Below, piece by piece: positions 13,651 through 22,328 of a stretch of 30,074 nucleotides of DNA. Made by a program: the position numbers and the translations under genes. Each line of letters starts with the position of its first letter. The stretch's first letter is position 1. Below the pieces are notes generated by a model, which had not been told where the DNA came from, did no database searches, and saw nothing but the letters and a program-made list of their open reading frames with translations. Source of the stretch: a virus; the IMG/VR virus record IMGVR_UViG_3300044624_001015, positions 1-30,074 of that record; one strand, given 5' to 3'.

Positions 13651-13680
13651 TCACCCGCTCCGGCGGGTGATCTTTTTTCT
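13651..13680 (+). terminator. Rho-independent terminator on the plus strand
   Basis: The perfect 8-bp stem TCACCCGC/GCGGGTGA with loop TCCG is followed at once by TCTTTTTTCT. This is a textbook intrinsic terminator for rightward transcripts. No rightward gene lies upstream. It would stop antisense transcripts coming through the helicase gene, or end a short RNA made in 13553-13650, just before promoter P1. Confidence 0.8.
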
Positions 13681-13681
13681 C

Positions 13682-13713
13682 GGACCGGTCTTGAACTCCT
13701 CGAGGACCGGTCC
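13682..13713. promoter_or_regulatory. Paired palindromic operator candidates at P1
   Basis: GGACCGGTC (13682-13690) lies directly before the -35 box and the palindrome GGACCGGTCC (13704-13713) lies inside the spacer, about two helical turns apart. The same pair occurs at 20850-20881. A related GGACCGGACC is found at 14200-14209. A repressor or activator dimer could bind these sites. The regulator is not identified in the window. Confidence 0.6.
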
Positions 13714-13719
13714 TATATC
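13691..13719 (+). promoter_or_regulatory. Early promoter P1 (sigma70-like)
   Basis: The -35 box TTGAAC, a 17-bp spacer and the -10 box TATATC point rightward to the gene at 13755. The same -35 box and the complete 17-bp spacer are repeated at 20859-20887. The leader is about 30 nt and ends in the GGAGACCTGCC ribosome binding region. Confidence 0.75.
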
Positions 13720-14158: not shown

Positions 14159-14178
14159 GCGGGGGGTTGACCGCCCCC
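14159..14178 (+). terminator. GC-rich hairpin after the first early gene (weak terminator)
   Basis: A run of G (14160-14166) can pair with the run of C after TTGACCG (14174-14179), forming a six-pair stem with a 7-nt loop. No T tract follows, so at most it is a weak or factor-dependent stop. It overlaps the -35 box of the next promoter candidate. Confidence 0.35.
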
Positions 14179-14196
14179 CTCGCCTTCGCCTATGAC
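14167..14196 (+). promoter_or_regulatory. Promoter candidate P3 ahead of the SNF2 gene
   Basis: TTGACC, 18-bp spacer, TATGAC. It is followed by GGACCGGACC (14200-14209), which resembles the operator of P1 and P2, and by CATGTAGCAACGT. The boxes fit sigma70 moderately well. Confidence 0.5.
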
Positions 14197-14219
14197 TTAG
14201 GACCGGACCGCAAGCGGCC

Positions 14220-14232
14220 CATGTAGCAACGT
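14220..14232 (+). repeat. CATGTAGCAACGT leader motif, copy 1
   Basis: The thirteen bases are identical to 18248-18260. Each copy comes just after a hairpin and 14-20 nt before a start codon (14247 and 18281). It may be a binding or processing site in the mRNA leader. Confidence 0.65.
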
Positions 14233-19036: not shown

Positions 19037-20839
19037 ATGACCTACGACCTGATCCTCGACAAAGCCGCCCTACGGCGCGCTCTCGCGCTGTGCACGAAGC
19101 CGACCGCGCTCGACTTCGAGACGACCTCCCTCCGCCCGATCGACGGCCGCGTTCGGCTCGCGCAGCTCCGCAATGACGAGCTGCGCTGCGTCGTCGACTT
19201 CGACCAGATCCCCGGAGGGTTTGCCGCCTGCGCTGGTCTGTTCCTCGGGCTCGGCCCGTGGGTCGTCTTTAATTCGGGCTTCGAGATGCGCTGGTTCCTC
19301 GCTGCCGGTGCCGCGCCTGACATCATCGACGTCGGACATCTGCGGCGCGCTCGCATGGGGGGCGGGCGCTTCTCGCTCGCCGACATGGTGCTCTGGGATC
19401 TCGAGAAGGTGCTCGAGAAGACCGAGCAGGTGTCGAACTGGGCTGCGCCCGAATTGACCGACGCGCAGCTCGAGTATGCGATCAAGGACGCCGACGTCAC
19501 CTTCGAGCTTTACCAGCATTGGACCGGCAAGACGACGGCCGCGCACGATCGCGCCGCGCAGCTCCTCGACGACATGACGCTCGGCGTGATCGAGATGGAA
19601 GAAGCCGGGATGCTGCTCGATCGGCGCGCTCACCGGGATCTGGTGCGGCGCTGGGAGGAGATCCGGGACGAGCTCGCGACGCAAGTCCGGAGCCTGATCC
19701 CCGAGGAGGACGTCGCGAACCTAAACTCGAACCCCCAGTTCTCGGATTTCTTCTCGCGGATCTTCCCGGACCGCGTGCTCTCGGTCTGGCCGAAGACCGA
19801 GAAGACGAACCAGCTCGAGATCTCCGGCGAGGCGCTCGCGAAAATGGCCGGGCTCTTTCCCGGGACGCCGATCGAGACCGCGCTCGACGCGCTGTCACGT
19901 TATCGCAAGATCCAGAAATACCTCTCGAGCTTCGGCCAGACCGTGATCGACACGGCCGCGCGATCGGCCGACGGTCGGGTCCGGGCGCGCTTCAACGTCG
20001 GCGCTGCGCGGACCTGTCGCTTCTCGAGCTCCGGCCCGAACCTGCAACAAGTGCCCCGGGATAAGAAGCTGTTCGCGTCCGACGACGACCAGACCCGCGT
20101 CCGCAAGAGCTTCGTCGCGCCGCCCGGATCTCTGCTCGTCTCCTACGACTATTCGGCAATCGAGATGCGCGTTCTCGCGCTCCTGTCCGGCGACGACCAG
20201 CTCCTGCACGACGTCGTCTTCGGGGACGTTCACTCGGAGGTCGCGGCCGTGATCGCTGGGCACAAGATCGACAAGAAAACCCCCGAGGGGAAGGCGGCGC
20301 GCAGCGCGGCGAAGGGGGTCTCGTTCGGGATCATTTACGGGAGCGCGGCCGGTGGCCTGTCGATCACGATGCGGACGACGCTCGAGAAGGCCCAGAGCTA
20401 CATCGACTTCTGGTCGGCGCGATACCCGCGCGCCTTCGCCTATCGCTTCCTCATGCAGGAGGAGGCCCAGAGCACGGGCTTCCTGACCATGAACGACGGA
20501 GGGACGATCTATCTGGGCAAGAAGAACGCGGATCTCCCGAAGTGCGCGAACTATCCCGTGCAGCGCGCCGCGCTCTCGGTCATGGCGCGCGCGATCACCC
20601 GGCACAAGGCGACGCTCGATCGCCTGCGCGGATCCGGCGAGCTCGACCGCGATCGCACGATGCTCCTCGCGACGATCCACGACGCGCTGATCGACGAGGC
20701 GCTCGAGGATCAGGCCGAGATCGTCAAGCAGGCAATGGCCGAGGACATGACCCAAGCATACCTCGACTTCTTCCCCGGCGCGCCGACGGACAATCTGATC
20801 GAGGGCGGCGTCGGCCCGAACTGGGCGGATCTCGGCTAA
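19037..20839 (+). CDS. polA: Family A DNA polymerase with 3'-5' exonuclease
   Basis: This encodes 600 aa without a 5' nuclease domain. The exonuclease part has DFETT at 26-30 (Exo I), FNSGFEMRW at 78-86 (Exo II, with Glu83 where Asp is usual) and YAIKDAD at 147-153 (Exo III). The polymerase part has RFSSSGPNLQQVP at 328-340, DYSAIEMRVL at 371-380 (motif A), KGVSFGIIYG at 426-435 (motif B, Phe430 equals E. coli Phe762) and IHDALIDE at 547-554 (motif C, Ala where Glu is usual after HD). It is the replicative polymerase of the phage and works with the PrimPol-helicase on the other strand. The gene follows a hairpin and a weak ribosome site. Confidence 0.93.
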   Translation: MTYDLILDKAALRRALALCTKPTALDFETTSLRPIDGRVRLAQLRNDELRCVVDFDQIPGGFAACAGLFLGLGPWVVFNSGFEMRWFLAAGAAPDIIDVGHLRRARMGGGRFSLADMVLWDLEKVLEKTEQVSNWAAPELTDAQLEYAIKDADVTFELYQHWTGKTTAAHDRAAQLLDDMTLGVIEMEEAGMLLDRRAHRDLVRRWEEIRDELATQVRSLIPEEDVANLNSNPQFSDFFSRIFPDRVLSVWPKTEKTNQLEISGEALAKMAGLFPGTPIETALDALSRYRKIQKYLSSFGQTVIDTAARSADGRVRARFNVGAARTCRFSSSGPNLQQVPRDKKLFASDDDQTRVRKSFVAPPGSLLVSYDYSAIEMRVLALLSGDDQLLHDVVFGDVHSEVAAVIAGHKIDKKTPEGKAARSAAKGVSFGIIYGSAAGGLSITMRTTLEKAQSYIDFWSARYPRAFAYRFLMQEEAQSTGFLTMNDGGTIYLGKKNADLPKCANYPVQRAALSVMARAITRHKATLDRLRGSGELDRDRTMLLATIHDALIDEALEDQAEIVKQAMAEDMTQAYLDFFPGAPTDNLIEGGVGPNWADLG

Positions 20840-20849
20840 ATTATTTTGC

Positions 20850-20881
20850 GACCGGTCCTTGAACTCCTCGAGGACCGGTCC
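20850..20881. promoter_or_regulatory. Paired palindromic operator candidates at P2
   Basis: GACCGGTCC (20850-20858) lies directly before the -35 box and GGACCGGTCC (20872-20881) lies in the spacer. The spacing is nearly the same as at P1. The two sites could also pair as an RNA hairpin, but transcription starts downstream of them. Confidence 0.6.
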
Positions 20882-20887
20882 TATCTC
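20859..20887 (+). promoter_or_regulatory. Early promoter P2 (sigma70-like), twin of P1
   Basis: TTGAAC, the same 17-bp spacer as P1, and TATCTC. It points to the gene at 20924. The leader ends in AAGGAGACCTGCC. Its identity to P1 over about 30 bp suggests a promoter duplication with common control. Confidence 0.72.
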
Positions 20888-20923: not shown

Positions 20924-21235
20924 ATGAAAGACTTCGGCATCCACACCGTCCGCCACACCGATAACACCTATTCGGTCGCGATCACCTTTCGCCCGATCAT
21001 GGAAGATATGTTCGAGACCGCCGTTCACGTCGCCCGCTTCAAAGAGGAAGTCGGCGCGATGCGGTTGGCATCGAAAGTCAAAGCTGCTTTCCTGAACCGT
21101 GCCGACAAGTCGGGCGGCGTCATTCAGTCGGTCGACCGCCGCTTCTGGCAGGGTCCGACCAGCATCTGCTCGCCGGTTCGCTGGGACGCCGAGGTCGACG
21201 CCTACTGCGTCCTGCCCCAGCGGCTCGTAGCGTGA
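20924..21235 (+). CDS. Small early protein behind promoter P2, unknown
   Basis: This encodes 103 aa. It begins MKDFGIHTVRHTDNTYSVAI and is soluble and mixed alpha/beta. A DNTYSVA segment weakly resembles TDNLYSFA in the 132-aa protein behind P1. Both are the first genes after twin promoters. The C-terminus (WDAEVDAYCVLPQRLVA) overlaps the next gene's possible GTG start. No function is recognised. Confidence 0.75.
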   Translation: MKDFGIHTVRHTDNTYSVAITFRPIMEDMFETAVHVARFKEEVGAMRLASKVKAAFLNRADKSGGVIQSVDRRFWQGPTSICSPVRWDAEVDAYCVLPQRLVA

Positions 21236-21246
21236 GGAGCCCGGCC

Positions 21247-21708
21247 ATGATCGAGCACTTCGAGCCCGTCCAGATCCCCGAGCGCGTCCCCGGCGCGCTC
21301 GAGAGCGCGAACGACGCGCTCCGCTTCATGTTCGGCGGGAACGCCGTCTTCACGCTCCGCAGCGAGAAGACCAGCACGCGCTTTACCTACAAGATCCGCC
21401 AGAAGGACGAGACCTCGCCTTTCTTCGTGTCGGTCCTCTCCGGCCCGAGCAACGAGACGGACTATCAATACCTCGGCTTCATCCCCCGCGCCGATCGCGG
21501 GACGTTGATCGCCGGATCCAAGGGCTTGCCCGGTGCCAAGAGCTTCAAGGCGCTCTCGTGGACGCTCTCGCAGCTCTCCGGCGCGCGGATCCCCGAGAAG
21601 CTCTCGATCTTCCACGAGGGCCGCTGCTGTGCCTGCGGCCGTAAACTGACCACCCCCGAAAGCATCCTCTCCGGCATTGGGCCGGAGTGCGCGAAAAAAG
21701 GAGCCTGA
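21247..21708 (+). CDS. DUF6011-type zinc-binding protein
   Basis: This encodes 153 aa from ATG 21247 (GGAG with 7-8 nt spacing). A GTG at 21232 in frame would add five residues. The C-terminus CCACGRKLTTPESILSGIGP followed by EC carries three to four cysteines in the DUF6011 pattern, a short zinc-binding tail on many phage and plasmid proteins. The N-terminal 120 residues are a beta-rich domain (FRYK-like strands such as STRFTYKIRQK). Proteins of this sort lie in replication modules, with unknown role. It directly follows the 103-aa gene. Confidence 0.76.
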   Translation: MIEHFEPVQIPERVPGALESANDALRFMFGGNAVFTLRSEKTSTRFTYKIRQKDETSPFFVSVLSGPSNETDYQYLGFIPRADRGTLIAGSKGLPGAKSFKALSWTLSQLSGARIPEKLSIFHEGRCCACGRKLTTPESILSGIGPECAKKGA

Positions 21709-21712
21709 GACC

Positions 21713-21823
21713 ATGCTGAAAGAAATCTTCCGGCGCGCCACGGCGCGCGACATCATCGAGGCCGCGCTCGGCGCGGTCGCGATCTTCGCGATCACCTATG
21801 CCGGTCTGGTGGTGCTGCCATGA
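21713..21823 (+). CDS. 36-aa membrane peptide
   Basis: A short frame runs from ATG 21713 to the TGA ending at 21823: M-L-K-E-I-F-R-R, then a helical part, then one hydrophobic segment (ALGAVAIFAITYAGLVVLP). AAGGAG lies 9-14 nt upstream. Its stop overlaps the next ATG (ATGA), which supports expression. The basic start and hydrophobic end predict a single-span inner-membrane peptide. Host-modifying early peptides look like this, but no function can be assigned. Confidence 0.5.
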   Translation: MLKEIFRRATARDIIEAALGAVAIFAITYAGLVVLP

Positions 21824-22161
21824 AGATCGTCCCGCTGATCTATCATCTGCCCGCGCTTTACGGGTCGCCCGCCGAGCGCGACGCCCTGCTCGAGGACATC
21901 AAGGCGCGCGGGATCCTCGAGGCGCACGATCTGGGCTCGCTGATCGACTACATCCGCCACATCCTCGACGACGCGGACGTGCGGATCGACGAGGCGCACC
22001 GAGAGACCAAGGACGCGCGCTCCGGTGGCATGTCAGACGCCGAGCTCGCGATCGTCGAGGCCAAGATTACCTCGACCTTCGACGACCTGATCCAGCGTCA
22101 CCCGGCGCTCTCCGACGACCTGATCGACGCCTGCGCCGGGCTGATCCACGAGGTGCGGTGA
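21820..22161 (+). CDS. Hypothetical early protein
   Basis: This encodes 113 aa (MKIVPLIYHLPALYGSPAER at the start). It is coupled with the 36-aa peptide by ATGA and with the next gene by TGATG. The protein is acidic and helical (DALLEDIKARGILEAHDLGS, LIDYIRHILDDADVRIDEAH) with no signal or membrane segment. It recalls other small acidic phage proteins that mimic or bind host factors, but this is only a look-alike. Confidence 0.66.
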   Translation: MKIVPLIYHLPALYGSPAERDALLEDIKARGILEAHDLGSLIDYIRHILDDADVRIDEAHRETKDARSGGMSDAELAIVEAKITSTFDDLIQRHPALSDDLIDACAGLIHEVR

Positions 22162-22328
22162 TGGACAAGATCCAAGAGCGCCGCCGCAGGGACCGAGACC
22201 GCAAGCGCGCAGAGCGCGCCGAGCTCGAGGCTCGAGGCATGATCCGGGTCGAGGTGATCGTCCCGAAGGCCAAGGCGGACCAGATCCGCGCGCTGGCCGA
22301 GATGCTGCAAGAGACCACCAGCTCGTGA
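22161..22328 (+). CDS. Small basic protein (55 aa), end of the early operon
   Basis: From ATG 22161 (TGATG overlap) to TGA 22328: MDKIQERRRRDRDRKRAERA, then ELEARGMIRVEVIVPKAKAD and a helix. A highly basic N-terminus followed by a beta-strand (MIRVEVIVP) and helix suits a ribbon-helix-helix-like DNA binder. The fold is a guess. It is the last gene before the convergent terminator. Confidence 0.6.
   Translation: MDKIQERRRRDRDRKRAERAELEARGMIRVEVIVPKAKADQIRALAEMLQETTSS

Follow-up and report, generated by a model that had tools for sequence, protein, structure and literature searches.

Paired palindromes at two putative promoters of a phage group and a small basic protein as their candidate repressor

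The DNA analysed here, called the window throughout, is a stretch of 30,074 nucleotides from an IMG/VR virus record. It carries two promoter-like elements, P1 and P2, each of which has a pair of palindromic sites (O1 and O2) placed around its -35 box (Table 1). With moderate confidence, comparison of the sequences suggests that P1 and P2 are host-type early promoters that are shut off by a dimeric repressor of the phage, probably the 55-aa basic protein encoded at 22161, in an autoregulatory loop of the Aca or Arc kind. Control of P1 and P2 is a well-supported but ordinary sort of phage switch, known in kind and new as an example. The sequence and position of the elements, their conservation, the gene order and the variability of the genes were all seen directly.

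Table 1. Putative promoter elements, operator-like sites and neighbouring genes in the window
Feature	Position	Strand	Remarks
Terminator-like hairpin with T tract	13651..13679	+	directly 5' of P1; 8 pairs, tail TCTTTTTTCT; putative role
P1 O1, upstream operator GGACCGGTCT	13682..13691	.	core GACCGGTC 13683-13690; putative, from sequence
P1 -35 TTGAAC	13691..13696	+	sequence read
P1 O2, downstream operator GGACCGGTCC	13704..13713	.	core 13705-13712, within the 17-bp spacer; putative
P1 -10 TATATC	13714..13719	+	CCTATATC has 6/7 fixed letters of the Caulobacter RpoD -10
132-aa ORF behind P1	13755..14153	+	variable slot; no Pfam, PHROG or PADLOC match
P3 promoter (putative) TTGACC, 18 bp, TATGAC	14167..14196	+	13/13 contigs with helicase start
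Third, half-degenerate operator copy (putative) GGACCGGACC	14200..14209	.	just 3' of the P3 -10
Helicase behind P3	14247..15581	+	phrog_62 E 2.4e-70; PF00176
DNA polymerase (polA type)	19037..20839	+	last gene before P2; phrog_17 E 2.6e-80
P2 O1, upstream operator CGACCGGTCC	20849..20858	.	core 20850-20857; putative
P2 -35 TTGAAC	20859..20864	+	sequence read
P2 O2, downstream operator GGACCGGTCC	20872..20881	.	core 20873-20880; putative
P2 -10 TATCTC	20882..20887	+	sequence read
103-aa ORF behind P2	20924..21235	+	variable slot; ORF comparison
DUF6011 protein	21232..21708	+	PF19474 E 7.4e-15; first gene behind P2 in 5/19 P2 loci
Acidic all-helical protein (21820)	21820..22161	+	pI 4.7; stop overlaps the 22161 start
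55-aa basic protein (22161)	22161..22328	+	pI 10.3; best candidate for operator-binding repressor

P1 and P2 have a common -35 box and are identical over all 17 spacer bases, as an earlier, sequence-only reading of this DNA had claimed. Direct reading at both promoters also agrees with its claim that the predicted sites overlap the promoter, with one palindrome on each side of the -35 box; O1 adjoins this box from upstream and O2 fills the spacer up to the -10 box. The palindromes are 22 bp apart at P1 and 23 bp at P2, close to the two helical turns proposed. Each promoter has one copy of the exact 10-mer GGACCGGTCC, and no other copy is present in the window. The 8-bp core is exact in all four sites, the upstream copies deviating in one outer base. 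The T tract 5' of P1 occupies the position of an UP element. A palindrome search over the window gave eight GACCGGTC sites, four of them outside P1 and P2, and pairs only at the two promoters. Since single sites are not rare in the window, the pairing is the informative part. Pairs of GACCGGTC at a distance of 20–24 bp were observed twice, against a mean of 0.001 and a maximum of 1 in 1000 dinucleotide shuffles. For any repeated 8-bp palindrome at 20–24 bp, the count was 2 against 0.155 expected (19 of 1000 shuffles reached 2), and the 10-mer with up to one mismatch matched 8 times where 2.26 matches were expected (a count this high was reached in 1 of 100 shuffles). The twin palindromes are not due to chance, and conservation is the deciding evidence.

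A scan of viral contigs for polA gave 41 loci. Close relatives were taken as those with at least 85% amino-acid identity, and 20 of them, including the window, have DNA past the polA stop. O1, -35, O2, and -10 lie directly after the polA stop in all 20 of these loci. The pair was found after polA in none of 18 distant relatives (53–57%), one of which has just 34 bases past the stop. Altogether 28 promoter instances, 26 of them distinct, were compared, and the distance between the -35 and -10 boxes is 17 bp in every one. The script used for the 28 instances required an O1-like pattern, TT at the -35, 17 bp, and TA at the -10; conservation of O1 and the spacing in that set are partly by construction, and the independent count is that of the 20 P2 loci located by their position after polA. 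In the relatives O2 reads GA(C/T)CGGTC and ends 1 bp before the -10 box (2 bp in G011), O1 adjoins the -35 box or lies 1 bp off, and the palindromes are 21–23 bp apart. The dyad overlapping the promoter is more conserved than the neighbouring bases, with 42–77% identity in the first eight spacer columns vs. 81–100% in the O2 columns among the 26 distinct promoters. The conserved features are the two palindromes and the two hexamers, and not the spacer. The shared spacer claimed earlier is real within the window but is no feature of the family, and the identical 17-bp spacer was rejected as a functional signal because its first eight columns vary among relatives. In the window, G001, and G003, P1 resembles P2, and in G006, G007, and G009 it does not; their spacer identity in the window looks like the product of a recent duplication or of gene conversion, with copying between P1 and P2. 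P1 with the full pair is present in 9 of 11 contigs that have enough upstream DNA; the P1 of G006 was kept despite a poor -10 box, TAGGTT. In G002 and G008, P1 is cut off at the O1/TTG junction and a remnant of O1 is fused to P3; the same hairpin as that preceding P1 in the window is found 5' of the helicase gene in both.

The twin element turned up in 21 viral contigs over two pattern scans (11 and 10). Nineteen of these were already in the set of relatives, and the other two, L066 and L074, carry the genes of the group. When 84,980 genomes of bacterial and archaeal species were scanned for the GACCGGTC form, the single match was unrelated and lay in a MAG labelled Armatimonadetes. The twin-operator module is confined to this phage group. 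A generic search revealed no other paired palindromes around a -35 box in the distant relatives, and GAYCGGTC is present in none of 30 distant helicase upstream regions. CACTGA/TCAGTG was found in 11 of these 30 loci (L093, L117, L120–L122, and others), and in some of them it forms a palindrome beside the -10 box, possibly a diverged operator, which is a weak lead. The group has no near DNA match among the annotated phages searched, where polA relatives have <60% identity. Bacterial genomes searched by polA pattern gave 11 matching stretches, none coding for a relative, and none of the nine published papers with the 10-mer is phage-related by title. Three relatives (G002, G006, and G008) have 127-bp end repeats and a length of 37–38 kb and are probably complete; the window, a 30-kb record, is shorter, and the remainder was judged from them.

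The genes of the region run rightward in the order ORF behind P1, helicase, variable ORFs, RecE/Cas4-like exonuclease, and 18281 protein, followed by polA, the ORF behind P2, the DUF6011 protein, 21820, and 22161. A gene starts shortly 3' of the promoter at all 27 promoters with enough DNA (L066 ends right after the promoter). The slots directly behind P1 and P2 promoters are hypervariable, and their ORFs belong to 13 families, one of them doubtful (a 231-aa cassette ORF in G006); the first cassette ORF at the P1 of G003 was missed by the ribosome-site filter in this count and was found in the ORF listing. The five of 19 P2 loci in which the DUF6011 gene stands directly behind P2 have no accessory ORF. 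One 68-aa ORF family occurs in both kinds of slot, following P1 in G003 and P2 in G004. A Pfam scan of ten cassette proteins from relatives gave one match above the cut-off, a sliding-clamp domain in G003; neither of the window's two cassette proteins (132 and 103 aa) had a Pfam match, and PADLOC gave no match for any of the eight cassette proteins scanned. The G003 match (PF02767, E 7.3e-8) is to the beta-clamp domain of DNA polymerase III and lies in a 204-aa ORF (L008:11885-12496), which takes the place behind P2 that the DUF6011 gene has in others. It is plausible that the variable genes behind P1 and P2 are early effectors, and recombination of cassettes may be made possible by the promoter and leader that they have in common (the leader ends GACCTGCCATG). 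A wider proposal, which we put forward as unlikely, is that the 8-bp palindromes are read by a mini-repressor without an HTH, about 55 aa long and built of a basic helix, a strand, and a helix, and that it governs two exchangeable sockets for a constantly changing set of small early genes, many of them for counter-defence or host takeover. If true, the twin-operator promoter would be a bait for such genes in uncultured phages.

For the type of promoter, the RpoD consensus of Caulobacter has been given as TTGaCgS for the -35 and GCTANAWC for the -10 (PMC8144410). Six of the seven fixed letters of this -10, as in CCTATATC, are present in 14 of the 28 instances, although the consensus may not be that of the host. 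The 28 instances match it on average in 5.2 of 7 letters at the -10 and 4.25 of 7 at the -35, and the -35 of the window has only 4 of the 7 letters of TTGACGS. A strict scan for E. coli-type sigma-70 promoters gave none in the P1/P2 stretch. The best annotated terminase relatives are from phages of Rhizobium, Shewanella, Paracoccus, Erythrobacter, and others, at 35–41% identity. Because of the RpoD-like -10 box and these terminase relatives, an alphaproteobacterial host is likely.

What we infer from these features is that the promoters are active and when, that they are bound and repressed, and which protein binds them. P1 and P2 would be promoters for the host housekeeping sigma factor and would fire early in infection. 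A phage-encoded dimer would occupy both palindromes and exclude RNA polymerase, and this binder would most likely be 22161, transcribed from P2 plus readthrough from P1 and P3. Negative feedback would thus give a burst of accessory and replication genes and then shut-off, with perhaps a weaker control of P3 through its half-matching site, and the promoter and leader modules would act as sockets for the exchange of small accessory genes. Repression by negative feedback is the simplest reading because, of the core genes 3' of P2, the last one encodes the candidate repressor. There is a slim chance that the paired palindromes are no repressor sites and instead act in activation, as part of a promoter for a phage RNA polymerase, in replication or packaging, or in recombination. 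The truncation of P1 in G002 and G008 and the 68-aa ORF found at P1 in one genome and at P2 in another have the look of a recombination joint, but the -35 and -10 boxes are always 17 bp apart, and a gene begins a short way 3' of all 27 promoters with enough DNA. A spacing of 17 bp needs no activator, and a protein within the spacer would block polymerase; activation by a spacer-bound protein is known where the spacer is longer. Unlike a phage-polymerase promoter, the 33-bp block varies between relatives over much of its length.

Among the proteins of the phage, the likeliest operator binder is probably 22161, which the sequence-only reading had already listed as a candidate regulator. It is present in all nine near-complete relatives and, by profile search, in all 19 operator-bearing contigs that reach it, and also in L074. 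The monomer model (pLDDT 87, pTM 0.49) predicts a helix at residues 2–24, an extended segment at 25–35 that includes RVEVIV, and a second helix at 36–54. R29, E31, and P35 are invariant in the 13 aligned homologues from operator-bearing genomes. Residue 33, in the predicted strand, is I or V in 11 genomes that have GACCGGTC at every operator; it is R in the 8 genomes that carry one or more GATCGGTC-type sites (AATCGGTC in G007). Six unlabelled rows (G012, G014, and four distant relatives) were left out of this count. The match between residue 33 and the operator variant amounts to one change on the polA tree, and as a single event it is suggestive only. If 22161 binds, it would be a repressor that belongs to none of the HTH families, and I/V33 with GACCGGTC and R33 with GATCGGTC would be natural specificity variants. 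With the operators and their positions known and a single candidate that is small, basic, and conserved, the circuit is open to in vitro test.

A Pfam search with 22161 itself gave nothing at E 0.1, the PDB held no match to its sequence or its fold, and no HTH profile scored above threshold. Compared with the ribbon-helix-helix (RHH) proteins of the Arc/MetJ type, it has the predicted order helix-strand-helix and no match to an RHH profile or fold. Its homologues weakly resemble the profiles PF11455 (MazE-like) and phrog_536 ("transcriptional regulator"); 7 of 24 members matched PF11455, the best at E 0.0013 and 19.1 bits, below the cut-off of 22, and the protein of the window did not match. 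PF11455 is distinct from the profile of MazE proper. Homologues of 22161 are also found in distant phages that have no operator of the P1/P2 type. Among annotated phages, a search with one homologue gave no match, and a distant homologue gave three matches at E 0.7–0.8, all inside helicase genes. A homologue at L018:7523-7741 has its basic N-terminal stretch duplicated and is 73 aa long instead of 59. The genes for the acidic helical 21820 and the small basic 22161 overlap and are found together in all near-complete relatives. Because the stop of 21820 overlaps the start of 22161, the two may act together, possibly as partners or as an antagonist pair.

The sequence-only reading had allowed for a dimeric regulator encoded either by the phage or by the host, with a 57-aa HTH protein (15581) as its other candidate in the window. 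The HTH protein is basic (pI 9.7) and resembles an HTH profile weakly (PF13518, E 8.4e-5, under the gathering score), but it is present in 1 of 9 near-complete relatives and by profile search in 4 of 19 contigs, all close to the window, while the operators are kept throughout the group; some contigs stop short of its locus. It was rejected on this distribution, and its chance of being the regulator is close to negligible. That another phage protein binds, whether 21820, the 18281 protein, or one encoded outside the window, is improbable. In favour of this reading, 21820, the 18281 protein, the helicase, the exonuclease, and polA are each found in all nine near-complete relatives, as is 22161. 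In addition, 21820 has a sub-threshold match to ZntR (E 6.6e-4, bits far below the cut-off), but the protein is acidic, and the match covers profile positions 47–119, which lie outside the N-terminal DNA-binding part. No Pfam match above the cut-off, no convincing solved structure, and no confident fold match were obtained for 21820. The gene table of G008 lists no further small conserved non-structural gene beyond the share of the window, which speaks against a binder encoded elsewhere. The DUF6011 protein was rejected as regulator, since it is missing in G003, which has kept both operator pairs.

Binding of the operators by a dimeric regulator of the host, so that the phage reads the state of the host through P1 and P2, is given a similarly low probability. 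The promoters look host-type, and from clade to clade the operators change together, an effect that a difference in hosts might produce as well. Against it, the basic phage protein 22161 tracks the operators, and the scan of the 84,980 genomes, which covered twin sites of the GACCGGTC form only, gave one unrelated contig, although a host regulator might use single sites and the host may be absent from these genomes. The phage-encoded part of the earlier claim is supported, and the host-encoded part is less likely. A LexA box was also considered and rejected. In alphaproteobacteria this box consists of GAAC (or GTTC) direct repeats 7 bp apart; the window has only GAAC-N7-GGAC, and GAAC is absent in most relatives.

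The proposed repression of P1 and P2 by 22161 can be compared with several known systems. P1 and P2 resemble acr-aca loci in having a promoter that looks host-type, inverted repeats within and beside the core promoter, small accessory genes, and a small candidate repressor encoded downstream. Studies of acr-aca have reported a strong host-type promoter before small accessory genes, with the repressor encoded downstream in the operon, and one inverted repeat inside the core promoter, often or sometimes with a second outside (PMC9410906). Unlike the known Aca proteins, which are HTH proteins, 22161 has no HTH match; it is encoded several genes downstream, one regulator would serve two promoters, and none of the accessory ORFs here is known as an anti-CRISPR. 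For Aca10, a site of 21 bp and a need for 19 bp have been reported (PMC9410881); the palindromes here are 8–10 bp, and a perfect palindrome of 8 bp is short for an HTH dimer. P22 Arc and other RHH mini-repressors (CopG, MetJ) are dimers of about 45–55 aa that use a strand for base reading, as is proposed for 22161. The Arc operator lies within the promoter. Arc has the order strand-helix-helix, unlike the helix-strand-helix predicted for 22161, which has no match to any solved RHH protein. Sizes of 45 aa for CopG and 53 aa for Arc have been reported for RHH mini-repressors, and the operator of the Kis/parD system is described as two palindromes, the first of which overlaps the -10 region while the other precedes the -35 (PMC4803016). 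The likeness to Kis lies in the twin palindromes at the promoter and in the weak match of distant 22161 homologues to a MazE-type family; unlike Kis, 22161 has no known toxin partner, and 21820, for which Pfam gave no match above the cut-off, is not known as a toxin. In cluster K mycobacteriophages, ESAS elements containing inverted repeats precede some of the non-structural genes, and their consensus changes from one subcluster to another; SAS is a 13-bp element at translation starts that is present in 11–19 copies and has no known function (PMC3203893). The elements studied here share with ESAS the repeated inverted repeats and a sequence that varies by clade, but unlike SAS they are limited to two twin-operator promoters or fewer per genome and are centred on the -35 and -10 boxes. 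P1 and P2 would work by analogy with acr-aca promoters and with Arc.

The looser third copy that had been noticed by P3 is present and is kept in all 13 contigs with the helicase start. P3 in these relatives consists of TTGACN, 18 bp, a TATGAC-like box, 2–3 bp, and RGACCGG(G/A)CC. With its degenerate right half and its position near the start point, this palindrome may be bound more weakly. In the P3 leader (14200-14230), at the beginning of the predicted helicase transcript, the operator-like site is followed by a conserved dyad of the GGRCC...GGYCC type, possibly a hairpin in the RNA or an operator of greater width.
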